Assembly (NCBI GenBank): GCA_964036045.1
Contig: OZ038387.1
Location: 19,308,794 to 19,372,793, forward strand
DNA: 64,000 bases
Source of the DNA: Eutreptiella sp. 'Long Island Sound 2002'
Taxonomy: Eukaryota; Euglenozoa; Euglenophyceae; Eutreptiales; Eutreptiaceae
Direction: 5' to 3'
A program made the translations under genes and the position numbers. This document shows positions 12,743 through 42,699 of this stretch, piece by piece; position 1 is the first letter of the stretch; each line of letters starts with the position of its first letter. A model generated the notes under the pieces. The model did no database searches. It worked only from the letters and a program-made list of their open reading frames with translations, and had not been told where the DNA came from.

Positions 12743-14492
12743 ATGTTGCCACAAGTCTCCGGTACGAAGGAGGCACGCACCTGCTGGCAATGCGGTACCC
12801 TATGGCAGGCCGGGGGGCCTGCAGAATGTCCAGAGTGTGGCCTGCATGCGTGGTTTGAGGTGGACGGTGTGTCACTACCGCCGGTCCGTTGTGACCTAAG
12901 TTTCTTGCCGTCACACGTGATGTCAGTGTTAGAGAAGTTGCCCAGTCCAGTGTTTGTGTTTGTGCTGCACAGCCTGTCCAGGTGGGCGCGTTTGCTTCAG
13001 CGGCGCAGCTTGCGCTCAGTGCAGGATGGCAGGGCAAGGGTGTCTCCGCCAGTTTGGCATGCTGATGCCCTGTTGGTGCTGCACACAGAGCCTCCGGTGG
13101 GCGCTTACTCAGAGGGTTGCAAAGCCGTGAAGCCAGGGAGCCCCGAAGTCACAGCGTATCAATTTCTCGTGGGAACACAGCGGTGTCCTACTTGCTCCAG
13201 GGTTCGATGGTGCGACGTGCGTGTAGTGGGTCCAGTGTGTTCAAGCACGCCACGAGCAGTGTGCCTCTGCCGTGTCACGGGTGTGTCGTACATGCAAAAG
13301 TCGCTGGCAGCGGCGAGTAGTGTGTGTGTGCGTGATACATATGTCGGCCGTGTCGTACCTCTGTACTTAGTGACGCACTATGACTGTAGGAGGGAATGTC
13401 CAGACGCGCCCTGTCCTGAAGTACCAGGGTGGGCTGATCAATTCGTTTTACCAGCGCAGTCGCCCACTGAGGGATCTGCAGCGAGTCTGCGAGTCATGAC
13501 GCTCAATTGTGGCGGGGCTCAGGGTAAGTTAAGTGTCATGGTAGGGGTGGTACTCAGTCACGATCCAGATGTGGCGTTTTTACAAGAATGTTGGGACGCA
13601 GACATAGAGAGCCAGTTTGCGTTACGGATGTATGTAGTGTGTATGAGTGCAGTGCAAGGACCTGGTAAGGGCATGTGCGTGTTGGTGCATCGCCGGCTTT
13701 GGGCGCCAGAAATGCAGCAGAGTTGTGATGTGCTCATTGATGAACGGTCGTGGCTAGCGGTGCTGCTACACCGTGACACCAATGTCGTGACTCTGCTTGT
13801 GGATGTACATATGGATCCAGAGATCAATAGCACAGCGAAGGAGGAGATACTGAGTGCGGTGGGTGCCATGATTGACAGGGTGCGCCCGCACGAGGCAGTG
13901 GTATCGGGCGACTTCAATGTCCCCAGGAACAGCAAAAGTTTGGTAGAGAGAGTGGTGAGCAAATGGCACGCACTGAGTAAACCGCATATACCGTACGACA
14001 GAGGGGAGAATACCAACTATACGTCTTCAGGACACGCAACAGTGGCCACAGAGATAGATTATATCCTGGTCTCCAAGCACATAGGAGTGGCACAGAAGGG
14101 AGTGTACCCAGGGGTTTCGACGCACATGGCCCTCGTTTGTACCCTCACAGGTATGGGTTGTCAGCCGGTGACAGTGCAGAAGCGCTACAAACACCGAGTA
14201 ACAACAGAAGACCAAAAGCAGCGGGCGGCGCGGCTGCTGGCCTTCTCCTGGTGGTGGTTGGCAGGCACAGGGGCACATCCTGACGCTTGGGTGGCATGTT
14301 ACTGGAGCGTTGCTGATGGTATACTGCCCACGAGCTCGCATCGAGTCAGTGCCCGGGCAATTTTGGACAGGGAGAAGGGTTTAGTAAACAAGGGGGTTAC
14401 ACAGCGGGAGCTGCGTGCATGGCACGAGGAAGTGCAACAGCACCTGTATGTGCGTGGGGTGTATATGAACGATCAGGTGCTGAGTACGGTCA
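12743..14492 (+). CDS. LINE ORF2, 5' part: zinc ribbon and AP-type endonuclease
   Basis: First half of a non-LTR retrotransposon polyprotein, cut at 14492 by the giant transposon; the second half is at 42700-46031. The frame is open from 12605; the first ATG is 12743. A C2C2 zinc ribbon (CWQC and CPEC, near 12780-12840) lies at the start, with more CxxC pairs at about 13190. An endonuclease/exonuclease/phosphatase domain starts at about 13485 (VMTLNCGG) and shows the catalytic Glu in FLQECW (about 13585), GDFN (about 13908), EIDYIL (about 14051) and the final His in STHM (about 14120). This domain nicks target DNA to prime reverse transcription. All key residues are present, so the part looked intact when the insertion occurred. 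After 14492 the frame runs into transposon sequence. Confidence 0.88.
14485..14492 (+). repeat. Target-site duplication, left copy (TACGGTCA)
   Basis: The 8-bp TACGGTCA also occurs at 42692-42699, on the other side of the giant insertion. An 8-bp duplication is the hallmark length of the hAT superfamily. Confidence 0.92.
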
Positions 14493-14506
14493 CAGCTATG
14501 GGTATA
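14493..14506 (+). repeat. Left terminal inverted repeat of the giant hAT
   Basis: CAGCTATGGGTATA, exact complement of 42678-42691. The CAG start is typical of hAT ends. Confidence 0.92.
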
Positions 14507-14539
14507 GTAACCCAATGGGCTATCAGACTTCACACTTCA

Positions 14540-14862
14540 GACTTTTATGGACCATCCCCCCCAACCCCCAACACCCAAGCCCCCCATGATAGACCCCCCC
14601 CCCCCCCAATATGAGACTAGTGGACAAGTGGAAAATGGGAAAATATGGAACCTCGGAAAACGTTCAACATGGGGGAAAGCATAGTACCCCCCCCCCCCGG
14701 CCTGTTTCGAATCATAAAAGTGCCCCCCCCCCCCCACCAGACACATAGGAACTTCACTTCAGGAAAATGGGGATAAAAGGGCAGTACCCCCCCCCCACCC
14801 CCACAGAGACACGGGAACTTCACTTCAGGAAAATGGTGGGTTGGGGAAAATATGCCCGCATG
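14540..14862. repeat. Left subterminal repeat region
   Basis: Poly-C runs alternate with GGAACTTCACTTCAGGAAAA and GGGATAAAAG motifs. The same order occurs in reverse complement at about 42105-42520, giving the two transposon ends extended imperfect inverted symmetry. Confidence 0.8.
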
Positions 14863-14901
14863 TGTGCATGTCATTGTGTTTGCTCTCCTTTCGCTTGCAG
14901 C

Positions 14902-15018
14902 GGTAGGTAAGGTGAGTAAGCCCAGGAGGGGCCACCCCCTGGTAGAGTCATCATGTTTGAGATTGACATTGTGGTAGGTAAGGTGAGTAAGGCCAAGAGG
15001 GGCCACCCCCTGGTAGAG
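14902..15018. repeat. 70-bp tandem duplication
   Basis: GGTAGGTAAGGTGAGTAAG followed by GGGGCCACCCCCTGGTAGAG occurs at 14902-14948 and again at 14972-15018. Each copy contains GTAAG/GTGAGT donor-like sequence; no splicing is demonstrated. Confidence 0.85.
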
Positions 15019-16070: not shown

Positions 16071-16484
16071 ACACCCTGGAGGTGTTCAGGTTGTGTGTGG
16101 TCTAGGCCTTGGCGCCTACGACCATATACCCCTTCAGTGATGATGCTGCCAACAGCTGAGAAGGGGTTTTGACATGTTTGTTTCTGCATCCGATCAGAAT
16201 GTGCTCATTATGCAGAACATCCTTGAGGTGTTTTAGCTGTCTGTGGTCCAGGCCCTGGCGCCACAGACCCCTTCAATGAAGAATGCGCCGACAACAACTG
16301 AGAAGGGGTTCTGATTTCCTGGTATTTGACACGCTTAGCATGCAACACTGTGGTACAACGCTGTGGTACACCGCTCCCCAAAAAACCATGAATCCTCTTC
16401 TACACATAGGGCACTCTTTTGTTACCTACCTCCCCCTTGAGGCGAGGAAGTCTGTCTTGGGTCTAGACCACTGCGTCTCTGACC
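16071..16484 (+). repeat. Diverged 88-bp-family repeats, copies before the Pro-rich ORF
   Basis: Three spaced copies share a 25-nt core at 16099-16123, 16245-16269 and 16460-16484. In each, GGTC is at positions 1-4, (A/G)CC at 8-10, GCG at 14-16 and GACC at 22-25. The outer bases of the 16460 copy extend the pairing (TTGGGTC with GACCCAA). The last copy ends 52 bp before the ATG of the Pro-rich ORF. Confidence 0.7.
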
Positions 16485-16536
16485 CAAACATTGGAGTTGG
16501 GCCTGCCCCACCACCCGCTGCGCGCCGCAGTTTGCC

Positions 16537-17523
16537 ATGTCGTCTAGCCCCCTTAGCAAGGCCTCTTCCGTCCCCTCCAGCCCTTCGTTCCCGGAATGTG
16601 GTTGGGGGGATCTGCCGGAGCTATTGCGGTTTGGAGACCAACCCCCCTCGCCACCGTGGGACTCTGACGCTGAGAAGTGTCTCAGCGAACTGGCCTCGCC
16701 CCAGCCTCCATTGCCAACACCGCCCCCCTCTCCCCCTTCACCAGCAACCTCTCCAACGCCAGTAAGTCCTCCACCGAGACCCCACGTTACCTCAACCCCA
16801 TACCTGGTAGCCTTGGAAGCCGTGGAGGAGGCCCTGATGTGCACTGCCGTTCCACCGCCATCCCCCCCACAACCCCCCAAGTACGTACCCAAGGACCCCC
16901 CCACCCCCCCCAAACCCACTGTTCACGGGCCATACAGTGCCAAAACATTGCAGCTCATCTGGGAGAATCACGGCGGTGGGGTTCAGTATTTCGTGGACGG
17001 GGTGCTGAACCGCCGTGCGATGTACCGGTTTGCGGTTCAGCAGCCCAAGAAAAACCCCTTGCGGCTGTGGCAGGAGGGCATGCGAATTAGCCATTCGCAT
17101 TTCATTTCAAGGGACGAGGAGCATGCAGCAGTGGTGCTTGAAATCCTGTGTGCTACCCCAAAACCCCCCCGTATCCCCAAGCCGGCCCCACAACCTGTGC
17201 CTCGTCGGCCACTGCCCCCTCCACCAAGTGATCAGGTGACACTGACCCAGTATAGCAGGCACCGCCGCTCCTCCCTCCTCCCATTGGCTCCCGCCCCGAA
17301 GCGGCCGTGCCCCACCCCGCAGTACGGTTCATTGCTCCAGCGCCGTGCGTCTCAGTCCGCCCCCCGCCGGAGAGGCCGCAGTTTGGGTCATTGCTGCCTG
17401 CGCAGGCCCCCCCGCAACGTCCACAGACTTCGGCGAAACGTTCCAATTTCCAGCTCTTCGGCAAGTGTGCACCGGGCGTCTCTTACACATAGGGCACTCT
17501 TTTATTTCCAACCTCCCCCTTGA
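16537..17523 (+). CDS. Proline-rich hypothetical protein of the giant hAT
   Basis: The ATG at 16537 gives 328 residues ending in TGA. Residues 1-100 are Ser/Pro-rich and disordered. About 135-215 is the only folded-looking part (YSAKTLQLIWENHGGGVQYF, then a basic LRLWQEGMRISHSHFIS). The rest is Pro/Arg-rich, and its C-terminal codons run into the next copy of the repeat family. No family was recognised. The stretch around 130-215 could be a small DNA- or RNA-binding domain, but this is speculation. Because the ORF sits between two copies of the same repeat, it could be a passenger gene whose 5' region and 3' end derive from that repeat. Confidence 0.45.
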   Translation: MSSSPLSKASSVPSSPSFPECGWGDLPELLRFGDQPPSPPWDSDAEKCLSELASPQPPLPTPPPSPPSPATSPTPVSPPPRPHVTSTPYLVALEAVEEALMCTAVPPPSPPQPPKYVPKDPPTPPKPTVHGPYSAKTLQLIWENHGGGVQYFVDGVLNRRAMYRFAVQQPKKNPLRLWQEGMRISHSHFISRDEEHAAVVLEILCATPKPPRIPKPAPQPVPRRPLPPPPSDQVTLTQYSRHRRSSLLPLAPAPKRPCPTPQYGSLLQRRASQSAPRRRGRSLGHCCLRRPPRNVHRLRRNVPISSSSASVHRASLTHRALFYFQPPP

Positions 17524-17600
17524 GGCGAGGAAGTGCGTCTTGGGTCTAGACCGTTGCGTCTCTGACCTAGACATCTGAGTTCGGCCTGCCCCAACACCCA
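17480..17600 (+). repeat. Repeat-family copy matching 16399-16530
   Basis: The block from ACACATAGGGCACTCTTTT to GGCCTGCCCCA matches 16402-16512 closely, including the 25-nt core at 17543-17567. It leads straight into the 88-bp tandem array. Confidence 0.85.
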
Positions 17601-17615
17601 CGCGTTCATCTCTCA

Positions 17616-18034
17616 CCCACTGCGGGCCGCTGAGCCGCAGGAGTTCGCCCTTGGTCCCCGGCCACAGCGCCCCGACCAGGGTCGTCGTTCCCCTCCGTAC
17701 CCACCCACTGCGGGCCGCTGAGCCGCAGGAGTTCGCCCTCGGTCCCCGGCCACAGCGCCCCGACCAGGGTCGTCGTTCCCCTCCGTACCCACCCACTGCG
17801 GGCCGCTGAGCCGCAGGAGTTCGCCCTCGGTCCCCGGCCACAGCGCCCCGACCAGGGTCGTCGTTCCTCTCCGTACCCACCCATTGCGGGCCGCCGAGCC
17901 GCAGGAGTTCGCCCTCGGTCCCCGGCCACAGCGCCCCGACCAGGGTCGTCTTTCCACCCCCAACTCACCTACTGCAGGCCTCTGAGCCGCAGGAGTTCGC
18001 TCTCGGTCCCCGGCCACAGCGCCCCGACCCAGAC
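17616..18034 (+). repeat. 88-bp tandem array, left
   Basis: Units start at 17616, 17704, 17792, 17880 and 17968, an exact 88-bp period. Each contains GAGCCGCAGGAGTTCGC and the 25-nt core beginning GGTCCCCGGCC. 88 is not a multiple of 3, so open frames through it on either strand are spurious. The array ends a few bases before the helicase coding region. Confidence 0.92.
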
Positions 18035-18036
18035 AA

Positions 18037-21000
18037 CATGCCAAACGGAGGGCAAACACAGCCCATGGCCATTGGCAAGGCAAAGGCCCTCAGCACGGCA
18101 AAGGCAAAGGCCCACAGCAAGGCAAAGGCCCACAGCATGGCAAAGGGTATGGCCTTGCCCAAGGCAAAGGCCCTCAGCAAGGTAAAGGCCATGGCCCTTA
18201 GCAAGGCAAAGGGCATGGCCCTGCACAAGGCAAAGGCACACAGCAAGGCAAAGGGCATGGCCCTGCGCAAGGCAAAGGCCCCCAGCAAGGCACAGGCAAA
18301 GGCCAAGCCCATCCACAAGGCAAAGGCCATGGCCCCCCACCAGGCAAAGGTCAGCCCCCCCCACAAGGCACAGGCCAAGGCCCGCCGCAAGACAAAGGTC
18401 AGGCCCCACCACAAGGCACAGGCCAAGGCCCGCCGCAAGCCAAAGAGAAGGCCCGGACCTTTGCGGAAACCCTTGCCCACGTGGACTATGACATCGACAC
18501 GAACCCAGCCGATGGATTCACCACCCGTTGGGCTGATCGCGATGCGTATGTCCACAAGGCATCCTTGGTGCACACCGTGCATGAGATCGCCGCTGCCCGG
18601 AGGTGGGCATGGGACCAAGGTGCCCAGAGGGAGCTGTGCTTTGACAGGGTTGAGACGCCGAAGGAGGACAAGCATGGCAACATGGTCACGGTAATAGAAT
18701 GGTCTGCTGAGCTCGAAGTTTGGGGCAACTGCGAGCTGACCGATGGGGATCTCATCCATGGATGGGACATGAAGCGGGCAGATGTCGACACCCTTGACGT
18801 GGCACCAAACCCGGACTGGATTGGCAAGGTGCAAGGTGATGGCACCTCTGGTGACATGGTGACCATTGTTTGTGCGAACAAACCGCCCATCTTGCACATG
18901 CGCAGGTGGTGGTGCTGTGTCCTGCCTGACGAGGCAGCGTTCCGGTCGTTGCCCGAGGAGATACGGACGGGGGTGGCCTGCAACGAGTTGCTCAATGCCT
19001 CCCGGCAAGAACCACGGCTGTCTAACAGCCTCCCTGCCGAGGACCAGCAGATCCTGCGTCACCTTGTGGAGCATCATAACCTGAACCCCTCCCAAGCCTT
19101 GGCTGTCCGGCAATGTCTGGATGAGGGTGCTGTTGTCTCCTCCATGACTGGGGGGGGCGGCACGGGGAAGTGGGAGACCCTGGTGGCCTGCATCAAGGCA
19201 GTGATGTGGCAGCAGGGGCACTTCGACCCATGCATCCCGAATCCCAAGGCGCCAGATTCGATACACACTGGCAGGAAAGGGGGGGGGGACCAACCGACAA
19301 CCCCCCTGGGGCATGCATCTTGGTCACCGCCCCAGCAAACGCACATGTCGACAACCTGATGCTGCGGGTGATCCAATCGGCAGACCAGGATCTTGTCTTC
19401 TCAAAGGCGGTCCTGAAGGACCACCCCGTGCCCTGGATGCGGTTCCGAGCTGCAAGGGGCCGGACCCCCCCAGGTTTGGAGCCGTACAACCAAACAACAG
19501 TCCAAGAGACGTTGGCCAATCATCCGCACTTCAATGGCACATTGCAGTGTGCCCTCAACAGCTGCCCGGTTCTCTTTGCAACAGCTGGTATGGTCGCCAC
19601 ACGGCGGCCCAGTGGGTCTGGACTTGGCAGCTTTTGGGGCACAGCGCATGTTTTGTGGGGATGCCGGTCAACTGCGCCCATATAGTGCCATCACTCTTCT
19701 TGCAGCTGCAGCTGCAGCGAAAGCAGCTGCAGCGGAAGGGGATAAAAAGGGGAAAGGGGGCAAGGTGCCGGCTCAACATATTGCATGGCCGCAGTCCGAG
19801 CATTTTGCTAACCTCAATGTGCACCTTGACCAGGGACCAGGGATGCAGTATGGTGACTCGCAGCGCTTCGCCACAAGTAGTGTGTTGCAGTTTGTCCTGT
19901 ACCGTACAAGGTGTACTGCGTGTGTCCTAACCCAGCAATTCCGCATGGACGTGCCTTTGGCAACGGTGGTGCGTGGGCTGTTCACGGGGGGGTCCTTGGG
20001 CTGGTACCCCGCCTCGGCCCCACCATTACCCCCCGCGGTGTTGGCAGGGCAACGCATCCGCATAGTGAGCACAAACGATCCTGAGTGGAGATCAGAATTG
20101 ACACGGTACGGGATGTCGGGCGCCCGGGTGCAGATACTGAGAAGGGAGGTTGGCAGAGCATGGGAGAGCCTTGTCATGGACGAGGCCATGCGCAATCAGG
20201 GGAACACGAGCAAGGACGAGGCCTTGCTCGTGTTGCACTTTCTGGAGCATGCACACAGTGCAAATGTGTACCCCCCCAAGTCAGTGGCAATCGTCACCAC
20301 ACACTATGCGCAGATGCTATGGCTGCAGCACTGTGTGGGGGCGGCAGGGCGCCATATGCATGGGGACCAAGCATATGAGTGTGTGCAGATGATCGCCACC
20401 CTGGACCGGTACCAGGGTCTGCAGGCTGCGGTTGTCCTTGCCTCCCTGGTGTCCTCGGAGCCGGGGATCATGAAGGACGTGGTGCGGGCAAACACACTAA
20501 CCAGCAGGGCCCAATCGGAGCTGCATCTTTTCGGGGCCTTTCTCGGTTGGGAGAAGTCCCCCCTCACTGCGGGTTGGTTGAGTGGGCTGAGGGTGATGGC
20601 TGCCGAACTGCAAAATTTCCCTTCCCCAGACGACGTACAGAAGGTGCACCTCCTGGGGGTTATGTACCAACAGCCCACCCTTGCCAAAAAAGAGGTGGGC
20701 GTCATCTACAAGTTCAAGGGGGGGGGGTTGGGGGTGGTGGGGCAGTGGCTTTGGAAACCGTGGAGGAAGCATGCCAAAGCCCTTGACCCCTGGGGATTCT
20801 CCCCCCCCCAGAGTGACCAATTGTTGGACTGGGAGTGGATCATGGCCAACAAGAGGGTTGGGACACTGGAGATGCGGGTGCGCCTGGAAGTGGGGGACGT
20901 AGAACCAAAGCACCTCGGGGTGACCCTCCCCGATTTCACGGAGTGGGCATTGCCCTACATCCTCCTCAGGGATGAGGACACAGGTTGGGCAGGGTGGCAT

Positions 21001-21435
21001 GACATTGAGGGGTTGGAGAGAGTGTGCCACACACAGGATTTGGCGGACCACGAGCAAAGGCCGGTGCAGTTTCTGCTGACCAAGCCCTTCCGCGAGGCCC
21101 AAACCTATTCCCAGCCCCCCCGGTCATCTGGCTACCGCACTGTGTCTCTGCCTGTGTGGCAGGATGCCTACAAGCACGTGGACATGGTAGGCTTCCTGGG
21201 CGATGACTTCTGCACACCCTTGGGGGTGTATGTGGCGTCTTTGCTCCATGGGGTGAGAGAGTGTGAGGGGGGGCGCGATGTGTGTGCCCCACATGCTGTT
21301 CACCCCGGACATGCCCAGCACTGTGGTTGGAAGCCATTGCCGGATCGCGTGAAGCGGTATGTCCTTGGCATGGTCGCACCGGCAGAGAAGCCTACATTTT
21401 CACCTGGCATCCCTCTTTCGGTTCGGAAATCATGA
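18037..21435 (+). pseudogene. SF1 (UPF1-like) helicase, degraded
   Basis: An ATP-driven nucleic-acid unwinding protein by motif order. A Gly/Gln/Pro/Lys-rich repeat (to about 18450, with one TAG at 18199-18201) leads into a unique N-domain (18480-19130). Motif I is GGGGTGKW at about 19150, with Trp in place of the usual Thr/Ser. A G-run at about 19279-19288 shifts the frame. Motif Ia (ILVTAPANAHVDNL) follows at about 19318. The frame returns at about 19600, where the DEAxQ box (motif II) should lie but is absent. Motif III is FCGDAGQLRP (about 19656), then QQFRM (about 19935), motif V DRYQGLQAAVVLASL (about 20405) and motif VI TSRAQSELHLFG (about 20500). The C-terminal 300 residues are unassigned. 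It ends in TGA. The start is uncertain: the nearest ATG (18038) is in another frame. Two frame breaks and damaged ATPase motifs suggest an inactive gene, though introns or assembly errors at G-runs could mimic this. Confidence 0.7.
18199..18201 (+). other. In-frame TAG at a Gln position of the helicase N-terminal repeat
   Basis: Neighbouring repeat units read PQQGKG with CAG as the first Gln; this unit reads P-TAG-QGKG. A single C-to-T change explains it. The frame then stays open into the helicase. Confidence 0.6.
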
Positions 21436-21466
21436 CATGACCCTGGCTCTGTGGAACATTGGACAG

Positions 21467-21507
21467 CCTAACCCTAACCCTAACCCTAACCCTAACCCTA
21501 ACCCTAA
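21467..21507. repeat. Interstitial telomeric repeat (CCCTAA)n
   Basis: Almost seven perfect CCCTAA units lie just downstream of the helicase stop. They adjoin the conserved TCAAGACTGAATATTGGGAC border of the 1.15-kb repeat. Confidence 0.95.
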
Positions 21508-22664
21508 TCAAGACTGAATATTGGGACCGAGCTGGTGGGGGAGGGAACATTAGCTATGACTGGTGAAGGACATCAAGAATGATTCACACATTGATGGCCC
21601 TTCACAAAGTGAAATCAGCTTGCAAGTCAACCCCATCACCACGAGGCCCACTTTCAAGGCTTTTGTTGGACTTCTGAGGGGCCAAAATGCCCCAAAATGG
21701 GCTCAAAATGGGCTCATTTCACCCGTTTGTGCACCCCAAATGGTCTAGGATGATTTCCGGAAAAACGCGTTTTTGACCCATTCTTGACCCATTTCTGGTC
21801 CCAAAACAGCCTTTTTTCAAGGCATTTTGAGATTTTCGGAGGACCAAAATGGGCCACCACAAGCTCAAAATGGTCCAAAAACACTTGTTTTAGCGTCGCA
21901 CATGGTCTAGGATCATTTTTGAGAAAAGTCATCTTTTTGCCCCTACTGGACCCTAATGACCCATTTGGGCACCCACCTGTTTGGGCTTGAGCTTGCAGCT
22001 TGCCGCAGCCTACTGGGCTTGCGTACGAGGGTGTAGGCGTCCGTTTGGGCAATTCTAAGGGGTGGAAACCACAAAAAGTGGGGGGTTGCGGGTGGAGTAG
22101 GTGCCCTCAGAATCGCATTTTGAGCCATGTAGCCAAAGATATGGCCTAATCTTGGTTTGTGGCTGTCGGCATTTGAAGCTTCCGGGGGCCTTTTTGGGCC
22201 GTTTCCGGGACATGTACTGGTGTTAGAGGGCGGCAAAGAGCTCGTTGACATAGGGAAGTCAAGCCGCACGTGCAGAGTAGCCACCGTTTCCCTTCGTTTG
22301 GCCGTTTTGAATGTGTTCTAGGGCTTTTTAAGCCCAAAAATGGCTGTTTTTGGCCCTAAAGTGCAGTTTTTGAAAGCGAGGTCCGCCACTTGCAAATCCC
22401 GTTCCCGGCCGCCACCGTTGAGTTTCTTGCTCAAACTTTGTGTGATTGTACTTCACACCCATAGGTATCATCCACCAAAATTTCACCCGAATCTGAACCC
22501 CCACGACGGAGTTCTGATTTTTACCCATTTCGCGCGTGCTGCTGCTCGCTGCTTGCTGCTGCTTGCTGCTGCTTGCTGCTGCTGCTGCTAAACCTGGTAG
22601 GTCCACCCTAGACACTAAAAAGGGTTATAAAACCAAGACTGGTTCCACCAGCTCGGTGACCCCA
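21507..22664 (+). repeat. Telomere-linked 1.15-kb repeat, copy 1
   Basis: Starts TCAAGACTGAATATTGGGAC, followed by CGAGCTGGTGG, and ends with GGGTTATAAAACC and CCACCAGCTCGGT. The two ends carry a 13-bp inverted repeat (ACCGAGCTGGTGG). The body is non-coding, with (GCT)n tracts near the right end. It is bordered on the left by CCCTAA repeats and on the right by GACCCCAA, a decayed telomeric unit. Confidence 0.88.
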
Positions 22665-23815
22665 ATCAAGACTGAATATTGGGACCGAGCTGGTGGGGGA
22701 GGGAACATCACCTATGACTGGTGAGGGACATCAACAATGATTCACACATTGATGGCCATTGAGAAAGTGAAATCAGCTTGCAAGTGAACCCCATCACCAC
22801 AAGGCCCACTTTCAAGGCTTTTTGGACATCTGAGGGGCCAAAATTGCCCAAAATGGGTTCAAAATGGGCTCATAATGGGCTCATTTCACCCGTTTGCGCA
22901 CCCCAAATGGTCTAGGATGATTTTTGGAAAAATGCGTTTTTGACCCATTTTTGACCCACTTTAGGTCCCAAAACAGCCCATTTTCAAGGCATTTTGGGAT
23001 TTTCGGAGGACCAAAATGGGCCACCACAAGCTCAAAACGGTCCAAAAACACTCGTTTTACCTTGGCACGTGGTATAGGATCATTTTTGAGAAAAGTCATC
23101 TTTTTGCCCCTACTGGACCCTGTTGACCCATTTGGGCACCCACCTATTTGGGCTTGAGCTTGTAGCTTGCCGCAGCCTAGTGGGCCTAGGTATGGGGGTC
23201 TAGGCGTCCGTTTGGGCAATTTTGAGGGGTGGAAACCACAAAAAGTGGGGGGTTGCGGGTGGAGTAGGTGCCCTCGGAATCGCATTTTGAGCCATGTAGC
23301 CAAAGATATGGCGTGTTCTTGGTTTGTGGCTGTCGGCATTTGGAGGTTCTGGGGGCCTTTTTGGGCCGTTTCCGGGATGTATCATGGAGTTAGAGGGCCG
23401 CAAAGAGCTCGTTGACACGGGGAAGTCAAGCCGCACATAGAGTGTACCCACCGTTTCCCTTCGTTTGGCCGTTTTGAATGTGTTCCAGGGCTGTTTGGGC
23501 CCAAAAATGACTGTTTTTGGCCCTAAACTGCAGTTTTTGAAACTGAGGTCCGCCACTTGCGAATCCCGTTCCCGGCCGCCACCGTTGAGTTTCTTGCTCA
23601 AACTTTGTGTGATTGTACTTCACACCCATAGGTATCATCCATCAAAATTTCATCCGAATGTGAAGCACCACGACGGAGTTCTGATTTTTGCCCATGTCGC
23701 GCGTGCTGCTTGCTTGCTGCTTGCTTGCTGCTTGCTGCTTGCTTGCTAAACCTGGTAGGTCCACCCTAGACCCTAAAAAGGGTTATAAAACCAAGACTGG
23801 TTCCACCAGCTCGGT
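22665..23815 (+). repeat. Telomere-linked 1.15-kb repeat, copy 2
   Basis: About 90% or more similar to copy 1 throughout by eye, with the same borders and a GCTTGCTTGCT tract near its right end. It is followed directly by telomeric repeats at 23816-23838. Confidence 0.88.
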
Positions 23816-23838
23816 AACCCTAACCCTAACCCTAACCA
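23816..23838. repeat. Interstitial telomeric repeat (AACCCT)n
   Basis: AACCCTAACCCTAACCCTAA lies immediately after the second 1.15-kb copy, so the pair of copies is embedded in a telomeric tract. Confidence 0.93.
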
Positions 23839-23885
23839 AGTATGGCGCATGTGGAGGTGTGTGTGGGACATCGGACGTTGAGAAT

Positions 23886-30900: not shown

Positions 30901-33900
30901 TGAATTATTTATGCCCCTCCGTGAATCATTTGATGCCTCCGTGCATCATTTGGGCCCTCCGTGAATTATTTACGCCCCTCCGTGAATTATTTCACCCCTC
31001 CGTGAATTATTTACGCCCCTCCGTGAATTTTTTCACCCCTCCGTGAATTATTTATGCCCCTCCGTGAATTATTTAATGCCTCCGTGAATTATTTATGCCC
31101 CTGTGTGAATTATTTGATGCCTCCGTGAATTATTTACGCCCCTCCGTGAATTATTTGATGCCTCCGTGAATTATTTACGCCCCTCCGTGAACTATTTGGG
31201 CCCTCCGTGAATTATTTACGCCCCTCCGTGAATTATTTCACCCCTCCGTGAATTATTTCACCCCTCCGTGAATTATTTGATGCCTTCGTGAATTATTTAT
31301 ACCCCTCCGTGAATTATTTCACCCCTCCGTGAATTTTTTCACCCCTCCGTGTATTATTTATGCCCCTCCGTGAATTATTTCACCCCTCCGTGAATTATTT
31401 ACGCCCCTCCGTGAATTATTTCACCCCTCCGTGAATCATTTATGCCCCTCCGTGAATTCTTTGATGCCTCCGTGAATTATTTACGCCCCTCCGTGAATTA
31501 TTTGATGCCTCCATGAATTATTTACGCCCCTCGGTGAATTATTTGATGCCTCCGTGAATTATTTACGCCCCTCCGTGAATTATTTGATGCCTCCGTGAAT
31601 TATTTACGCCCCTCCGTGAATTATTTCACCCCTCCGTGAATTATTTATGCCCCTCCGTGAATTATTTGATGCCTCCGTGAATTATTCATGCCCCTCCGTG
31701 AATTATTTGGGCCCTCCGTGAATTATTTACGCCCCTCCGTGAATTATTTCACCCCTCCGTGAATTATTTATGTCCCTCCGTGAATTATTTGATGCCTCCG
31801 TGAATTATTTACGCCCCTCCGTGAATTATTTGATGCCTCCGTGAATTATTTACGCCCCTCTGTGAATTTTTTGGGCCCTCCGTGAATTATTTACGCCCCT
31901 CCGTGAATTATTTCGGCCCTCCGTGAATTATTTATGCCCCTCCGTGAATTATTTGATGCCTCCGTGAATTATTTGTGCCCCTCCGTGAATTATTTCACCC
32001 CTCCGTGAATTATTTACGCCCCTCCGTGAATTATTTCACCCCTCCGTGAATTATTTATGCCCCTCCGTGAATTATTTGATGCCTCCGTGAATTATTTACG
32101 CCCCTCCGTGAATTCTTTCACCCCTCCGTGAATTATTTACGCCCCTCCGTGAATTATTTGATGCCTCCGTGAATTATTTGCGCCCCTCCATGAATTATTT
32201 GATGCCTCCGTGAATTATTTACGCCCCTCCGTGAATTATTTGAGCCCTCCGTGAATTATTTATGCCCCTCGGTGAATTATTTGATGCCTCCGTGAATTAT
32301 TTACGCCCCTCCGTGAATTAATTTACCCCTCCGTGAATTATTTATGCCCCTCCGTGAATTATTTGGGCCCTCCGTGAATTAGTTACGCCCCTCCGTGAAT
32401 TATTTCACCCCTCCGTGAATTATTTACGCCCCTCCGTGAATTATTTGGGCCCTCCGTGAATTATTTACGCCCCTCCGTGAATTATTTCACCCCTCCGTGA
32501 ATTATTTATGCCCCTCGGTGAATTATTTCACCCCTCCGTGAATTATTTATGCCCCTCCGTGAATTATTTGATGCCTCCGTGAATTATTTATGCCCCTCCG
32601 TGAATTATTTGGGCCCTCCGTGAATCCTTTACGCCCCTCCGTGAATTATTTCACCCCTCCGTGAATTATTTATGCCCCTCCGTGAATTATTTGATGCCTC
32701 CGTGAATCTTTTACGCCCCTCCGTGAATTAATTGATGCCTCCGTGAATTATTTACGCCCCTCCGTGAATTATTTGATGCCTCCGTGAATTATTTACGCCC
32801 CTCCGTGAATTATTTCACCCCTCCGTGAATTATTTACGCCCCGCCGTGAATTATTTGGGCCCTCCGTGAATTATTTACGCCCGTCCGTGAATTATTTCAC
32901 CCCTCCGTGAATTATTTATGCCCCTCCGTGAATTATTTCACCCCTCCGTGAATTATTTTTTGCCCCTCCGTGAATTATTTGATGCCTCTGTGAATTATTT
33001 ATGCCCCTCCGTGAATTATTTGGGCCCTCCGTGAATTATTTACGCCCCTCCGTGAATTATTTCACCCCTCCGTGAATTATTTATGCCCCTCCGTGAATTA
33101 TTTGATGCCTCCGTGAATTATTTACGCCCCTCCGTGAATTATTTGATGCCTCCATGAATTATTTACGCCCCTCCGTGAATTTTTTGGGCCCTCCGTGAAT
33201 TATTTACGCCCCTCCGTGAATTATTTCGGCCCTCCGTGAATTATTTATGCCCCTCCGTGAATTATTTGATGCCTCCGTGAATTATTTATGCCCCTCCGTG
33301 AATTATTTCACCCCTCCGTGAATTATTTACGCCCCTCCGTGAACTATTTCACCCCTCCGTGAATTATTTATGCCCCTCCGTGAATTATTTGATGCCTCCG
33401 TGAATTATTTATGCCCCTCCGTGAATCATTTGATGCCTCCGTGCATCATTTGGGCCCTCCGTGAATTATTTACGCCCCTCCGTGAATTATTTCACCCCTC
33501 CGTGAATTATTTACGCCCCTCCGTGAATTTTTTCACCCCTCCGTGAATTATTTATGCCCCTCCGTGAATTATTTAATGCCTCCGTGAATTATCTATGCCC
33601 CTGTGTGAATTATTTGATGCCTCCGTGAATTATTTACGCCCCTCCGTGAATTATTTGATGCCTCCGTGAATTATTTACGCCCCTCCGTGAACTATTTGGG
33701 CCCTCCGTGAATTATTTACGCCCCTCCGTGAATTATTTCACCCCTCCGTGAATTATTTCACCCCTCCGTGAATTATTTGATGCCTTCGTGAATTATTTAT
33801 ACCCCTCCGTGAATTATTTCACCCCTCCGTGAATTTTTTCACCCCTCCGTGTATTATTTATGCCCCTCCGTGAATTATTTCACCCCTCCGTGAATTATTT

Positions 33901-36900
33901 ACGCCCCTCCGTGAATTATTTCACCCCTCCGTGAATCATTTATGCCCCTCCGTGAATTCTTTGATGCCTCCGTGAATTATTTACGCCCCTCCGTGAATTA
34001 TTTGATGCCTCCATGAATTATTTACGCCCCTCGCTGAATTATTTGATGCCTCCGTGAATTATTTACGCCCCTCCGTGAATTATTTGATGCCTCCGTGAAT
34101 TATTTACGCCCCTCGGTGAATTATTTGATGCCTCCGTGAATTATTTACGCCCCTCCGTGAATTATTTGGGCCCTCCATGAATTATTTACGCCCCTCCGTG
34201 AATTATTTGATGCCTCCGTGAATTATTTATGCCCCTCCGTGAATTATTTCACCCCTCCGTGAATTATTTACGCCCCTCCGTGAATTATTTGGGCCCTCCG
34301 TGAATTATTTACGCCCCTCCGTGAATTATTTGGGCCCTCCGTGAATTATTTACGCCCCTCCGTGAATTATTTCACCCCTCCGTGAACTATTTACGCCCCT
34401 CCGTGAATTATTTGGGCCCTCCGTGAATTATTTACGCCCCTCCGTGAATTATTCCGACCCTCCGTGAATTATTTACGCCCCTCCGTGAATTATTTGATGC
34501 CTCGGTGAATCATTTATGCCCCTCCGTGAATTATTTGATGCCTCCGTGAATTATTTACGCCCCTCCGTGAATTATTTGATGCCTCCGTGAATTATTTACG
34601 CCCCTCCGTGAATTTTTCCGGCCCTCCGTGAATTATTTATGCCCCTCCGTGAATTATTTGATGCGCCCGTGAATTATTTATGCCCCTCCGTGAATTATTT
34701 CACCCCTTCGTGAATTATTTACGCCCCTCCGTGAATTCTTTCACCCCTCCGTGAATTATTTACGCCCCTCCGTGAATTTTTTGATGCCTCCGTGAATTAC
34801 TTACGCCCCTCCGTGAATTATTTGATGCGTCCGTGAATTATTTACGCCCCTCCGTGCATTATTTGGGCCCTCCGTGAATTATTTACGCCCCTCCGTGAAT
34901 TATTTGGGCCCTCCGTGAATTATTTACGCCCCTCCGTGAATTATTTCACCCCTCCGTGAATTATTTATGCCCCTCCGTGAATTATTTGATGCCTCCGTGA
35001 ATCATTTACGCCCCTCCGTGAATTATTTCACCCCTCCGTGAATTATTTACGCCCCTCCGTGAATTTTTTGGGCCCTCCGTGAATTATTTACGCCCCTCCG
35101 TGAATTATTTCACCCCTCCGTGTTTTTTCTTACGCCCCTCCGTGAATTATTTGGGCCCTCCGTGAATTATTTACGCCCCTCCGTGAATTATTTGGGCCCT
35201 CCGTGGATTATTTACGCCCCTCCGTGAATTTTTTCACCCCTCCGTGAATTATTTATGCCCCTCCATTAATTATTTGATGCCTCCGTGAATTATTTACGCC
35301 CCTCCGTGACGTATTTCACCCATCCGTGAATTATTTACGCCCCTCCGTGAATTTTTTGGGCCCTCCGTGAATTATTTACGCTCCTCCGTGAATTATTTCA
35401 CCCCTCCGTGAATTAATTATGCCCCTCCGTGAATTATTTGATGCCTCCGTGAATTATTTACGCCCCTCCGTGAATTATTTCACCCCTCCGTGAAATTTTT
35501 ACGCCCCTCCGTGAATTATTTGATGCCTCCGTGAATTATTTATGCCCCTCCGTGAATTATTTCACCCCTCCGTGAATTATTTACGCCCCTCCGTAATTTA
35601 TTTCACCCCTCCGTGAATTATTTATGCCCCTCCGTGAATTCTTTGATGCCTCCGTGAATTATTTACGCCCCTCCGTGAATTATTTGATGCCTCCGTGAAT
35701 TATTTACGCCCCTCCGTGAATTATTTGATGCCTCCGTGAATTTTTTACGCCACTCCGTGAATTATTTGATGCCTCCGTGAATTATTTACGCCCCTCGGTG
35801 AATTATTTGATGCCTCCGTGAATTATTTACGCCCCTCGGTGAATTATTTGGGCCCTCCGTGAATTATTTACGCCCCTCCGTGAATTATTTGGGCCCTCCG
35901 TGAATTATTTCCGCCCCTCCGTGAATTATTTGATGCCTCCGTGAATTATTTACGCCCCTCCGTGAATTATTTCACCCCTCCGTGAATTATTAATGCCCCT
36001 CTGTGAATTATTTCACCCCTCCGTGAATTATTTACGCCCCTCCGTGAATTATTTCACCCCTCCGTGATATATATACGCCCCTCCGTGAATTATTTGGGCC
36101 CTCCGTGAATTACTTACGCCCCTCCGTGAATTATTTGGGCCCTCCGTGAATTATTTACGCCCCTCCGTGAATTATTTCACCCCTCCGTGAATTAGTTATG
36201 CCCCTCCGTGAATTATTTCACCCCTCCGTGAATTATTTACGCCCCTCTGTGAATTATTTCACCCCTCCGTGAATTATTTATGCCCCTCCGTGAATTATTT
36301 GGGCCCTCCGTGAATTATTTACGCCCCTCCGTGAATTATTTGGGCCCTCCGTGAATTATTTACGCCCCTCCGTGAATTATTTCACCCCTCCGTGAATTAT
36401 TTACGCCCCTCCGTGATTTATTTGAGGCCTCCGTGAATTATTTATGCCCCTCCGTGAATTATTTGATGCCTCCGTGAATTATTTACTCCCCTCCTTGAAT
36501 TATTTGGGCCCTCCGTGAATTATTTACGCCCCTCCGTGATTTTTTTCGGCCCTCTGTGAATTATTTATGCCCCTCCGTGAATTATTTATGCCCCTCCGTG
36601 AATTATTTCACCCGTCCGTGAATTATTTACGCCCCTTCGTGAATTATTTCACCCCTCCGTGAATTATTTACGCCCCTCCATGAATTATTTGATGCCTCCG
36701 TGAATTATTTACGCCCCTCCGTGAATTATTTGATGCGTCCGTGAATTATTTACGCCCCTCCGTGAATTATTTGGGCCCTCCGTGAATTATTTACGCCCCT
36801 CCGTGAATTAGTTGGCCCCTCCGTGAATTATTTACGCCCCTCCGTGAATTATTTCACCCCTCCGTGAATTATTTATGCCCCTCCGTGAATTATTTGATGC

Positions 36901-37740: not shown

Positions 37741-37754
37741 GTACCTCACCTGTG

Positions 37755-38270
37755 CTAGCCTGTGAGCGGCAGGAGTTGCCCCTTGGTCTCTGGCTGCAGC
37801 GCCTCAACCAGGGGCATCCCGCATCCCCCAACCCACCTACTGCTTGCCCTTGAGCCACAGAAGTTGGCCCTTGGTCCCTGGCCACAGCGCCGCGACCACG
37901 GTCATTAGCCGTCCCCCCACCCACACACTGCAGGCCACCGAGCCGCAGGACTTGGCCATTGGTCCTTGGCCGCCGCGCCTCGACCTCGGTCGTCGTCCAT
38001 ACCCCACCACAACCACTGCAGGCCGCCGAGCCGCAGGAGTTCGCCCTTGGTCCTTGGCCGCCGCGCCTCGACCTCGGTCGTCGTCCATACCCCACCACAA
38101 CCACTGCAGGCCGCCGAGCCGCAGGAGTTCGCCCTTGGTCCTTGGCCGCCGCGCCTCGACCTCGGTCATCGTCCATCCCTCACCCCTCCCCAGCTACTGC
38201 TAGCCCTTGAGGCGCAGAAGTCTGCCCTTGGTCCCCGGCCGTTGCGCCTCGACCAGGGTCTACGTTCATA
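37755..38270 (+). repeat. 88-bp tandem array, right
   Basis: About six units of the same family as 17616-18034. The best-preserved pair starts at 38013 and 38101, an 88-bp period. Each has GAGCCGCAGGAG or GAGGCGCAGAAG, then the GGTC-GCG-GACC core. It lies upstream of the transposase-side ORFs, as the left array lies upstream of the helicase. Confidence 0.9.
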
Positions 38271-38458
38271 CCACGCGGTGGCATCAAGTGGGCCCGCGCA
38301 GGAACCCAAGGAGGAAGCAGCCTACCACTTCGAGTATCGGGGTCCGGGACCAGATTGTCCTCCTGAGTTGTGGTCACCAACAAGTGCCCATCGAACTGCA
38401 CCTTGTGGACCACGCAAGAGGCCACAACCTTTAACCGTGCTGAGGCAGCCTCCTACAA

Positions 38459-40039
38459 ATGGCCCAGCATCCTGAATGGCCCCCATGGGACACCATGGAA
38501 GCTGCCCAGATGAAAATGGGATTCCGTCTAGCCCTCGGCGAGGCAGGGTGGCATGCCCCACCAGAACAGGAGGCCATCTATTATAGGAAGTTGGCAATGT
38601 ACATGGCGACATGTTCCCTTGATGTCGTCCATACCCATGGACTTGCAGCACTCTGCCGCCTGATGTACAGCCAAGAGGGCAGTCCAAAGTGCACGCGGGA
38701 GGATGGAGGTGTTGTTGTGGAGTACCAGAAGGTAGCCCCAGGCCTCTGGGACCGGATAAAAAAGTATGAGCAAGGCCGTGGGAAAGTGGGGAGTCGACGA
38801 GGGGCCATTGGTGGACACCCCATGAGCGTTAGCAAAGTTGCTTGGCTAGAGGCATGGAATGACATTGTGTATGCCTTGCCACTTGTGGACTCATGGCCTT
38901 TCTGGAGAGGGGAGACCAAGTACCCCACACCCACTGTGGAGAGGATGTATGTGGAGAAAGTACGGAGAGTACCCTTGGGCACAATGCAGTACTTTTGGCC
39001 ACAGGCAGCAAGTGCAGCACGGCCATTCACAAGTGATTTGGTGGCATCTGTGAGCCGCCGGAACTCACTGTTGCCGGCCAACGGGGAGGGATCGAAAGCA
39101 CAGGGGACCCCAGGATCCGGGGGTGGTCGACAAAGAGTGTCAGCGCCAGCCGGTGGCACAGGTCCCACTGGCCAGGGGACCCCTGGATCCGGGGGTAGTC
39201 GACGGAGCTCCCTGTTGCCCGAAAGCTCAACGTCCACTTGCAGTCCCGGACCTCAACCCAGCGTCCCACCCAATCCAGCACCTATGATGGTGCGGCTGAC
39301 GAGACAGCAACAGTTCGACCAAGCACTGATGACAACGTGCCATGGCATTGCCCGGTGTGTCCGCATTGCGATGCAAGGCTTGGGGGAGCAACGGCGGGAG
39401 CCCCTGTCAGAGGAGAGCCTGGTGGCTGCCTATACGGTGGGACGCCACTTTGCAGAGTCAATGCGGATTCCCATGCAAGAGAGTAGCGATGTGATACTGA
39501 GGTGCACCCCTTTCAGCCCCGAGGTACCCTGCAACCACTTGGGATACCTGCATGCTGGTGTCCGTGTGGTGAATAATGCATGGACACATGATGTAGGGGA
39601 GGAGGCCATGGAGCTTCTATTGGAAGCCATGGCAGACGCTGGGGTGCAACCCCCCCCCCCCCCAGGACCCCCGAGACCTGACCAAGATCCCCCCAGAGGC
39701 GATCCAAGCCAGTCCGACGTCCCAGCCTGTGCGCTGCGACTCGGATCCCAAGATGCATCTGTCGGTGTCCCTGATGACAACGGTACGCCCAACGATGCAT
39801 GTGCTATGCACCTGGAAGGGGGCACAAAGGAGGCCATAGGCACAGCTGGCACCCTTGGTGAAGCACAGCAACCCCCCCCCCCACCCCCCCCTGCCTCCAC
39901 TCCTATGACTGCTGGTGGGCTCAGAAGGTTGTGGCTTTTGCGGTGGATGGTGCCTCTAACCTTGGTGTGCGTGGTGCCACTGCAAGGCAAGCTGTTGATG
40001 TGTCGGCAATGGAGCACAATGTGTTTGCCATGCTTGTGA
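38459..40039 (+). CDS. Hypothetical protein, possible N-terminal part of the hAT transposase
   Basis: 526 codons starting with GTG or ATG near 38459-38476. Residues 1-190 look like a globular domain (PEQEAIYYRKLAMYMATCSL, WLEAWNDIVYALPLVDSWPF). A Gly/Ser-rich linker follows (200-280), then a second helical domain (290-400) and a Pro/Asp-rich tail. No BED zinc finger is visible. The frame crosses two long C-runs (39648-39662 and 39871-39889); at the second, coding potential passes to the next frame, where the transposase core begins. The simplest reading is one transposase gene with a C-run slippage or assembly error; alternatively this is a separate upstream protein. Confidence 0.5.
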   Translation: MAQHPEWPPWDTMEAAQMKMGFRLALGEAGWHAPPEQEAIYYRKLAMYMATCSLDVVHTHGLAALCRLMYSQEGSPKCTREDGGVVVEYQKVAPGLWDRIKKYEQGRGKVGSRRGAIGGHPMSVSKVAWLEAWNDIVYALPLVDSWPFWRGETKYPTPTVERMYVEKVRRVPLGTMQYFWPQAASAARPFTSDLVASVSRRNSLLPANGEGSKAQGTPGSGGGRQRVSAPAGGTGPTGQGTPGSGGSRRSSLLPESSTSTCSPGPQPSVPPNPAPMMVRLTRQQQFDQALMTTCHGIARCVRIAMQGLGEQRREPLSEESLVAAYTVGRHFAESMRIPMQESSDVILRCTPFSPEVPCNHLGYLHAGVRVVNNAWTHDVGEEAMELLLEAMADAGVQPPPPPGPPRPDQDPPRGDPSQSDVPACALRLGSQDASVGVPDDNGTPNDACAMHLEGGTKEAIGTAGTLGEAQQPPPPPPPASTPMTAGGLRRLWLLRWMVPLTLVCVVPLQGKLLMCRQWSTMCLPCL

Positions 40040-42015
40040 AGTGGCTATCCTTGCTAACCCCCTTGGGTGAGCCATGCCATGTGGTCCAGCGCAAGCTAGG
40101 CCTTGCCTTGGAGGCTGCCGGCCAAGTGCATGCTGACTACCTGGCAGCTGTGGGTCGCCAACGTGCATTGTACAACGGTGCGCGCCAGTAGAAGGACCTC
40201 GAGAGGTGTGTCCAAGAGAACACCAGACCAGATACACGCAGCGGGTTGCGTTTGATCCCTGCTAGTCACCGTATCCGGTGGTCCGAGGCAAATGCCCGTC
40301 GCAACAAGGTGTTCTTGGCCAATGTGCCATGGGTGGCGAGGCATTTGGATTCCAAAACGCACCTCACCACCAAGGAGGAGGATGTGTGGGAGGATTGCCA
40401 TGATGCAGGTTTGCTGTCATGGGCAGTGGTATATGGGGACATACTACATGGTACGCGCAGCTTCAACAACGTTGCACAGTTGCATGCACCAACAGGTGCC
40501 CACTTGACCAAGGCAACCGAAATGTTACAGGCACGGGTGGAAAAGGTGGCGAGGGAGGAGGGGCCAGGGTGGACTCAATTCAAAGAGCAAACTGTGACAG
40601 GTGCATGGCATGGCGTTGAATTGGTCCGGTTTGATGCCGATGGCCAGAGGTGCACAACCAGCCCCCCTTTTCCAGCCACATAGGCACGGGCAGTCACAGA
40701 CACACTGCTTGCTGGCATCAGGGAGGGACAGGGTACCATTGACCCCCGGGGTGTTCTTGAGTGTGCTGTGTTGCTTGACCACGGCCGTTGGCTCGCTCTA
40801 CCAACGGCTGATCGAGCCACATTTGGAGTGGATCTGCTGAAGCAGTTCATGGGCACACACCATGCTGAACTGGCAGCTGCGCATGTTAATGCTGCTCGTG
40901 CATTGGAAGAGTGGGAATCCTTCAAGGAGCATGTCGTTCGGACCTTCGCCAAGACCCCCATGTCCCGGATGTGGGAGGCCTTGACGCCGGAGCGGGAGCA
41001 TGTCCAATGGGTGAATGTTTGGCGTGTTTTGGCATTGCTGCGCACATATTGCCCTGCTGAGGCTGCTGTTGAGCGTGCCATTTCGTTGCGTGGGAGGTTC
41101 ACCAACAGTATGCATGATATGGAGGACACACATGTCCTTAGCATGTGCATGGCTTTGCATTGTAATCTGCCACCTTTGCGGCAGTGGGCGAAGGGGCAGG
41201 GTGTCGAGGTAGCCAGCAAGCTGGCAGCCAATGCACGCTTCGATGTGCGTCCCTGGCATAGGGTTTCGCATCGCATTGATCCACGTACATTAGTGGAAGC
41301 GGCCATGTTGCAGTGCCTGGAAGGGGAGGCTGCAGTGGTAGACGATGGTGACATTTTGCCATCTTTTGGGGGGTCGGAAGTGCCACTGGCTTGTCAAGGC
41401 GCAACACGCAGACGCACTGACCGACAAGCCCCGTCTGAGCACACTGAGGGCACTTTGGTCGAACCAGATGGTAGTCCTGCTCAGCATGGTGGCAACCATG
41501 ACTTCTTCACTTTCCGAAGGGGCATGGACTGTGCAATGTGCAGGCAATCTGTGCACATCTGGTGCAACACATGTCTGGTTTGCCATGCATGCTTCGTCAA
41601 GGATCCAAAACCGTGTGGTGAGGCAGTGGTGCAGGTTGTGGATGATGCAGCTGAGGCTGCTGAAAATAATAGTGAAGAGGAGGCAGTGGAACCACGGAAG
41701 TCCGACCCAAAGCGTGCCTTGGCCCGTGCACAGGCCAAGTTGGCATGTGCTGCAAAATCAGGCACATTGCGTGACTGGACACGCGCTCGCATCTGTGATT
41801 GCTTGGCAAGCATGGGTGTGAAGGTGCCAAATAGCAAGACCCGGGGAGAAGCCCGAGAACTTGCTATGCAAGAGGTGTTGCCTTTGCTAGCCCAGATGGA
41901 CTGTGACTGGGTCCCCCCAACGGATCGTGTTACCCGTTCTGCTGCACCTCCCAGCAGCTCACAACCATGTTCCCAAGTGCCGGTGGATGACATGGACGGA
42001 TTCATTGATGAATGA
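39892..42015 (+). CDS. hAT-type transposase core, two in-frame TAGs
   Basis: The enzyme that would cut and rejoin the element. One frame stays open from the C-run to TGA at 42013-42015, except for TAG at 40189-40191 and 40681-40683. Family features in order: WSEANARR (RW element), LSWAVVYGDILHGTRSFNNV, then LLDHGRW (equivalent of the LDPR segment, about 40768), FGVDLLKQF, ALEEWESFKEHV (about 40905), and the C-terminal dimerisation signature YCPAEAAVERAISLRGRFTN with MALHCN (about 41050-41165). A Cys-rich cluster follows (CAMC, CNTC, CHAC; about 41530-41620), then an acidic/basic tail. ZNF862-like hATs show similar C-termini. The gene lies next to the right end, and the 8-bp target duplication agrees with this family. 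Confidence 0.78.
40189..40191 (+). other. In-frame TAG in the transposase, first
   Basis: Sits in ...NGARQ-TAG-KDLERC... with the frame continuing on both sides. Confidence 0.8.
40681..40683 (+). other. In-frame TAG in the transposase, second
   Basis: Sits in ...PFPAT-TAG-ARAVTDTLL... with the hAT LDPR-like segment 30 residues downstream in the same frame. Confidence 0.8.
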
Positions 42016-42104
42016 CAGTGGTGGGGTTGCAGTGGTATTGTGCTTTTGCATGCCTGCTGTGCCAATCCCCATGTTCTCCTTCTCTGCAGGTCCATTCATA
42101 CATT

Positions 42105-42677
42105 AGCAAGCATCAGTACGGTTTTCCCATTTCCCTTTGTTTTCCCTTTTTCCACATTTTCCCCAACGCCCCATTTTTCAAGAGGTATGTGTTTTTTTTT
42201 TGGGGCAGGGAGGGGGGGGGTGGGTACTTGTGCCACATTGTTCCCAGAATTGCCTTTTCCGGATTTTCAAACCCCCTTTTTTCCCCAACCCAACCCATCA
42301 TTTTCTTGAACTGTGTGGTTGTGTGTTTTTTTTGGGGGGGGGGGGGGGCTTGTATGAGACTTTTTCCAGTTTTCCCTTGTCCACATTTTCCATTCCAACC
42401 TATTTTCCCCAACGCACCATTTTACCGAGGTGAAGTGCCTGTGTGTCTGTGGGGGGTGGGGTATTGCACTTTTATCCCCATTTTCCTTTGAAGTTGCTAT
42501 GTGTCTTGGGGGGGGGGGGTCTGCACTGCTGTAACCATTTTCTTGAACTCAAGTTCCTGTGTGTGGTGTGTGTGTGGGGGGGGGGGGGGGGGCACTTGTA
42601 TCAGACTTTTACTTGGATGTGCTCTAATGGCGGGTCCGCAACCCGACATGCCAAATCAGACTTCAGACTTCAGACTT
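42105..42677. repeat. Right subterminal repeat region
   Basis: Long G runs alternate with TTTTCCCCAAC, TTTATCCCCATTTTCC and GAAGTTGC(T)ATGTGTCT motifs, which are complementary to the left subterminal region 14540-14862. A CAGACTTCAGACTT motif at about 42658 matches 14524 in direct orientation. Confidence 0.8.
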
Positions 42678-42691
42678 TATACCCATAGCTG
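42678..42691 (-). repeat. Right terminal inverted repeat of the giant hAT
   Basis: TATACCCATAGCTG, exact complement of 14493-14506. Confidence 0.92.
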
Positions 42692-42699
42692 TACGGTCA
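42692..42699 (+). repeat. Target-site duplication, right copy (TACGGTCA)
   Basis: Identical to 14485-14492. LINE coding sequence resumes at 42700. Confidence 0.92.

Follow-up and report, generated by a model that had tools for sequence, protein, structure and literature searches.

The 64,000-nucleotide stretch of the Eutreptiella sp. 'Long Island Sound 2002' genome analysed here, which we call the window, contains a LINE ORF2 whose two halves lie far apart, and the question that it raises is whether a single mobile element separates them and, if so, what kind of transposon this is. In our reading, the intervening DNA is very probably a decayed, non-autonomous member of a family of giant hAT-like DNA transposons, inserted into ORF2 by cut-and-paste transposition with duplication of 8 bp. 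The features concerned are listed below in window coordinates.

12605..14492, plus strand: 5' part of the interrupted LINE ORF2, with an AP-like endonuclease domain at ~13496-14113 (PF03372)
14485..14492, no strand: left target-site duplication TACGGTCA
14493..14506, plus strand: left terminal inverted repeat, 14 bp, the end seen at 40 scored genome sites
14524..14544, plus strand: CAGACTT subterminal repeats of the left end, two copies (three in other left ends examined)
16483..17520, plus strand: ORF-A, proline-rich, no known domain (Pfam; copy comparison)
17614..18029, plus strand: 88-bp tandem repeat, left array
18202..21432, plus strand: SF1 helicase-like gene, broken (AAA_12 match)
21501..23823, plus strand: block of ~1.16 kb in two tandem copies, missing from the 32-kb and 19-kb copies and present in copy L042
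24989..37632, plus strand: 41-bp satellite array of ~308 units, in which a higher-order repeat of 2,500 bp recurs in near-identical form
37764..38260, plus strand: right array of the 88-bp tandem repeat, akin to the left one
38444..39911, plus strand: ORF-C fragment (704-aa frame in the 32-kb copy)
39912..42012, plus strand: hAT-like transposase, C-terminal 700 codons with two in-frame TAG stops (comparison with other copies)
42657..42677, plus strand: CAGACTT subterminal repeats of the right end, three copies, in the same orientation as at the left end
42678..42691, minus strand: right terminal inverted repeat, 14 bp, the end seen at 40 scored genome sites
42692..42699, no strand: right target-site duplication TACGGTCA
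42700..46028, plus strand: 3' part of the LINE ORF2, its RT/RNase H read from motifs only

Insertion boundaries and the interrupted LINE

The element spans window positions 14493-42691, that is, 28,199 bp between the target-site duplications. An initial reading of the sequence (the original prediction) had claimed perfect 14-bp inverted ends and identical 8-bp flanks, and both pairs were found: the terminal inverted repeat (TIR) CAGCTATGGGTATA occurs as a perfect pair at 14493-14506 on the plus strand and 42678-42691 on the minus strand, and an exact 8-bp duplication, TACGGTCA, lies on both sides at 14485-14492 and 42692-42699. With up to two mismatches allowed, no further CAGCTATGGGTATA site was detected elsewhere in the 64-kb window; the chance expectation for the TIR in the window is 0.23, and two or more sites arose in 0 of 100 shuffles. 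Scans of the window with Rfam (gathering thresholds) and for tRNAs returned nothing.

Joining 12605-14492 to 42700-46031 yields a single frame of 1,739 codons whose only stop is terminal. Counted from its first methionine (residue 47), this frame has 1,693 codons, in agreement with the predicted length of about 1,693 codons after excision. An endonuclease had been assigned to the left half and RT-RNase H to the right; the former was identified by Pfam (Exo_endo_phos, PF03372, E = 1.3e-11), and the latter stands as a reading of both domains by eye, Pfam having matched no RVT or RNase H profile in the right half.

The joined 400-bp LINE sequence was used as an empty-site query against the genome, and every candidate was scored. 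The junction is spanned by 14 of the 19 matches, which include the window's own two halves and a copy of the left half located on the same contig, 100,104 bp upstream. All six paralogous LINE copies that were fetched (L055-L060) carry exactly one TACGGTCA at the site and read through it, and the longest frame crosses the junction in five of them, the exception being the rearranged L060. Because these paralogues read through with one TACGGTCA, the LINE was continuous at this site before the insertion. The uninterrupted LINE, proposed as a check, is thus present elsewhere in the genome, and the claim of a single insertion is upheld by the ends, the duplication, the restored frame and the single TACGGTCA in six of six paralogues. 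Viral contigs scanned with the LINE gave one trivial 27-residue match only.

The left LINE/element junction occurs a second time (L061, G000:C10:19222882-19224381), 100,104 bp upstream of its counterpart in the window, and the two are 99.7% identical over 1,500 bases; a right LINE flank matching at 100% turned up just once. The second junction could stem from a large tandem duplication whose breakpoint lies within the element, from recombination of one element copy with another, or from duplication in the assembly.

An assembly chimera of two LINE halves would give the same overall arrangement. The window alone could not rule against it, and the near-identical left junction on the same contig speaks in its favour; against it stand the exact target-site duplication and TIRs, the continuity of the frame and the many other copies with the same ends, which leave the chimera with a negligible probability. 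We therefore retain a genuine insertion as our reading.

Three further regions of the window were recorded outside the element. At 2047-5992, an RVT_1 match (E = 2.1e-11) follows frames that appear tyrosine-recombinase-like by eye, and this region possibly represents a DIRS-type element. Positions 49544-50141 consist of a 21-bp minisatellite (28 copies, 96%), and a G+C-rich (~75%) open frame at 61676-64000 leaves the window, with a REJ match of 24.5 that lies just below the 25-bit cut-off.

Copies of the family across the genome

The genome searched comprised 2,280,300,865 bases in 2,205 contigs. The 65-bp left end retrieved 761 candidates, the best 40 of which were scored at 98-100%, and the 92-bp right end retrieved 650, the best 40 of which were scored at 97-100%; these 40 left and 40 right ends are the best of longer lists and are not a copy number. 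Other copies bounded by the same ends, the second check that had been proposed, were accordingly found at many sites, among the 40 left and 40 right ends scored. Flanks differ among the 30 right-end copies except in L019 and L020; a few others share diverged repeats. L019 and L020 lie ~94 kb apart on C7 in opposite orientation, with the same right-hand duplication sequence and flanks 99.7% identical over 1,500 bases, and are an inverted segmental duplication carrying the element. At L038, one element copy is nested in another copy of the same family, and GGGGGGGG adjoins its right end.

Five left-end copies (L040-L044) were read 8-10 kb inward, and three of them were traced to the right end. 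The copy on C4 (L040, L052, L053 and L054; the 32-kb copy) measures 32,260 bp, with TIRs of 14/14, an 8/8 duplication, GGATGGCA, and 14.2 kb of satellite. One copy on C3 (L043 and L049; the 13.8-kb copy) measures 13,802 bp, with an 8/8 duplication, CTGCATCC, and ~1.4 kb of satellite. The second C3 copy (L044, L050 and L051; the 19-kb copy) measures 19,000 bp, with a right TIR of 13/14, a duplication of 7/8 and ~0.9 kb of satellite. Across the four end-to-end copies, the window's included, the duplication is 8/8 in three and 7/8 in one. Insertion was precise, with an 8-bp duplication, in the LINE and likewise at the unrelated sites of the other copies.

Large size is a family trait, because three further end-to-end copies have the lengths given above. 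The claim that the element is far larger than usual hATs is therefore borne out and holds for the family, the 32,260-bp copy having an exact duplication of its own. A small ordinary hAT enlarged in the window copy alone, through nested insertions and satellite expansion, would account for 12.6 kb being satellite with near-identical 2.5-kb blocks and for a 2.3-kb duplicated block that the 32-kb copy does not have. The other copies argue against such growth: in four of the five inward-read copies (L040, L042, L043 and L044) the left end is followed by ORF-A and by some or all of the helicase region, in the same order, L041 sharing with the others only the left end and the ORF-A region; the 32-kb copy keeps this arrangement of parts and has ~18 kb of non-satellite DNA; the opposite 14-bp end is absent within 1.5 kb inward in all 38 end loci (8 left, 30 right); and complete copies sharing the architecture are found elsewhere. 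We regard enlargement in the window copy alone as very improbable, and treat the element as a member of a giant family.

Much of the variation in element size is owed to the length of the 41-bp satellite (~1-14 kb), which is 12.6 kb in the window and 14.2, ~1.4 and ~0.9 kb in the other three end-to-end copies. Shifted by 2,500 bp, the window array matches itself at 99-100% identity over roughly 4.75 kb (blocks in 26740-33990), which suggests either very recent in-place expansion or an assembly effect.

Transposase and cargo genes

The original prediction had placed a hAT-type transposase inside the element. A transposase is present, as judged by its key residues; it is truncated in the window and goes without profile recognition. 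The window copy lacks ~834 N-terminal transposase codons, with 4.0 kb of the 32-kb copy missing at the junction 39911/39912, and the first catalytic Asp is therefore gone. This deletion and the two in-frame stops make the window copy defective; that state, the 12.6-kb satellite array and the broken helicase-like gene had escaped the initial reading. Reading the two TAG codons under an alternative genetic code was considered and rejected, because TAG is absent from the interior of the 1,739-codon LINE frame and the transposase frame of two other copies is open at that place.

Four more copies (L045-L048) were examined over the 5.5 kb inside their right ends. The transposase frame is open in two of the eight copies read, extending from stop to stop over 1,534 codons in L046 and 1,530 codons in the 13.8-kb copy. 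The remaining frames are interrupted by an internal stop (L045), a single-base deletion (L047), a single-base deletion and a stop near the start (L048), several stops and indels (the 19-kb copy) and a frame change (the 32-kb copy). Between the two open frames, pN/pS is 0.38; it lies between 0.41 and 1.42 for other pairs, and a comparison of 25 pooled right-end loci with L046, two of them badly aligned, gave 0.58. Beside their right ends, two of the 30 right-end loci (L025 and L030) show no alignment with the transposase end. At E up to 10, nothing in Pfam matched the full 1,534-codon transposase, which drew one irrelevant match (E = 0.21) in a PDB sequence search; Pfam and PDB searches with the window's transposase reading gave nothing useful, and viral contigs scanned with the transposase gave no match.

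The compared part of ORF-A (16525-17520) contains no stop in six of six copies, L041 covering 773 of its 996 bases, and the five other copies differ from the window by small indels. Its pN/pS is 0.47-0.82.

The helicase-like gene is disrupted in each of the five copies that extend over it (the window, L040, L042, and the 13.8-kb and 19-kb copies); L041, read over 8 kb, ends short of it. In the window, the Walker A part lies in frame 1, the motif Ia part in frame 3 and the C-terminal part in frame 1, and ~75 bp that form the motif II region in another copy are missing at 19607/19608. AAA_12 matches the window gene above its cut-off (E = 2.4e-10), AAA_11 (E = 3.8e-4) and AAA_30 (E = 0.002) fall below theirs, and AAA_11 reaches E = 3.2e-6 in another copy. 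Helicase-like motifs include the Walker A sequence GGAGTGKS in the 13.8-kb copy and FVDESS in L040. We take the AAA_11 and AAA_12 models to be tied to UPF1, and the gene is presumably of UPF1 type. A PDB sequence search with the helicase-like pieces gave no match, and viral contigs scanned with the gene gave no confirmed match. Its pN/pS is 0.73-1.51 in the N-terminal part and 0.42-0.86 in the C-terminal part. Introns may offer an alternative to breakage; the gene is best seen as decaying cargo.

By eye only, the C-terminal part of ORF-C resembles an OTU-type cysteine protease, and Pfam gave no match for ORF-C. The 13.8-kb copy has an arrangement, GACFFYATALSLH...GGHY, that looks OTU-like by eye, and the Cys is lost in the 32-kb copy.

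Superfamily assignment and relation to known systems

The hAT traits found at the element's borders are the 8-bp duplication, a short TIR starting with CAG at both ends, and CAGACTT subterminal repeats inside both ends; the direct, not inverted, orientation of these repeats counts against a hAT reading. In the L046 transposase, D774, D846, R956-W957 and E1221 correspond in order to the key residues of hATs; they were picked by eye and then compared with the published list. Their spacings of 72, 110 and 265 compare with 68, 70 and 254 in Hermes and 66, 96 and 256 in plant numbering, as computed from residue numbers in PMC6027215, and the D846-R956 spacing exceeds its Hermes counterpart. Placed with no gaps allowed, the C-terminal block of Hermes (PDB 8EDG) attains its top score where E572 faces E1221, a score reached by 77 of 2000 shuffles for a 43-residue part and by 463 of 2000 for all 63 residues; the score of a gapped local alignment of this block is reached by 243 of 500 shuffles and is not above them. 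Pfam did not match the C-terminal hAT dimerisation block PF05699 in the transposase. The C-x2-H pair, which is highly conserved in hATs and lies outside the five essential residues (PMC6027215), was not found in L046, where C889 and H890 are adjacent. A Cys-rich sequence, MCICCSW, occurs at transposase residue 572, with no Pfam BED match. The duplications weakly follow the pattern nTnnnnAn, with T2 in 17 and A7 in 13 of 37, a set that includes the duplicated pair L019/L020. A single-sequence fold of the 616-residue window fragment had a pLDDT of 36.8 and was unusable. The missing Pfam match and C-x2-H pair, the long D846-R956 spacing, the shuffle results and the weak target pattern speak against a hAT. 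By its ends, duplication and key residues the element is hAT-like, and its membership of the superfamily is probable.

The element could instead be a giant DNA transposon from a different superfamily that makes 8-bp duplications (KDZ/Zisupton-like or P-element-like), and it would then work in the same way with a different transposase. Both 8-bp target-site duplications and large size are known for KDZ, 8-bp duplications are known for P elements, and no hAT profile matched; against this, R-W and E-R-x-x-S occur in the order expected of a hAT, and no non-hAT transposase profile matched either. A Pfam search at E up to 10 matched no KDZ transposase profile, which says little because hAT profiles were also without a match. 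We consider another superfamily unlikely, and continue with the hAT-like reading.

Under the hAT-like reading, full-length transposase from other copies would recognise the TIRs and the CAGACTT subterminal repeats and would cut through a D-D-E RNase H-like site, and the excised molecule of 14-32 kb would then integrate elsewhere through a stagger of 8 bp. The window copy would be mobile only in trans, if at all, using transposase from open copies. The helicase-like gene would be a passenger or a former accessory gene that is now decaying, and the 41-bp satellite would expand and contract within each copy after insertion, by slippage or unequal exchange, producing much of the size. More tentatively, and as a possibility that we do not yet favour, the family may constitute an undescribed giant autonomous hAT-like lineage of ~32 kb, with a transposase of ~1.53 thousand codons, originally an SF1 helicase and an OTU-like gene, and its own satellite seeding kilobase arrays at perhaps hundreds of sites in the 2.3-Gb genome.

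If the hAT assignment is true, the size of hAT-type elements with exact 8-bp duplications rises to at least 32 kb, a superfamily otherwise associated with small, simple elements gains a helicase- and satellite-carrying design, and satellite DNA gains a natural route by which it could reach many chromosomal sites. The high identity of the copies allows direct measurement of their history, of the loss of cargo and of the growth of the satellite in place.

Among known systems, KDZ (Kyakuja-Dileera-Zisupton) elements resemble the family in their 8-bp target-site duplications and large size, and differ from it in that the family has the hAT-type R-W and E-R-x-x-S and matches no Pfam transposase profile of any kind. 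Helitrons and AcademH are transposons with helicase genes, and the family is like them in carrying a helicase gene within a DNA transposon; unlike theirs, its helicase matches AAA_11/AAA_12 and is broken in every copy read there, and its ends and target-site duplication are of hAT type. No report of a giant or helicase-bearing hAT was recognised by title in searches, several of them narrow, of the open-licence PMC literature, a sample that is not proof of absence. With the hAT superfamily (Hermes, Ac, and Gulliver of Chlamydomonas), the family shares CAG ends, a short TIR, an 8-bp target-site duplication and subterminal repeats, together with the D-D-(RW)-E residues, whose order is the same and whose spacing is roughly similar (list from PMC6027215). 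It departs from hATs in matching no profile, in having C889-H890 in place of C-x2-H, and in carrying a helicase-like gene and a long internal satellite. Hermes, as described in PMC10368747, has a transposase of 612 aa, an 8-bp target nTnnnnAn and subterminal repeats, and the frame found here runs to ~1.53 thousand codons. In size, the family reaches 28-32 kb, compared with 7,144 bp for the Gulliver consensus, the longest hAT consensus in the plant and algal set of PMC6027215.
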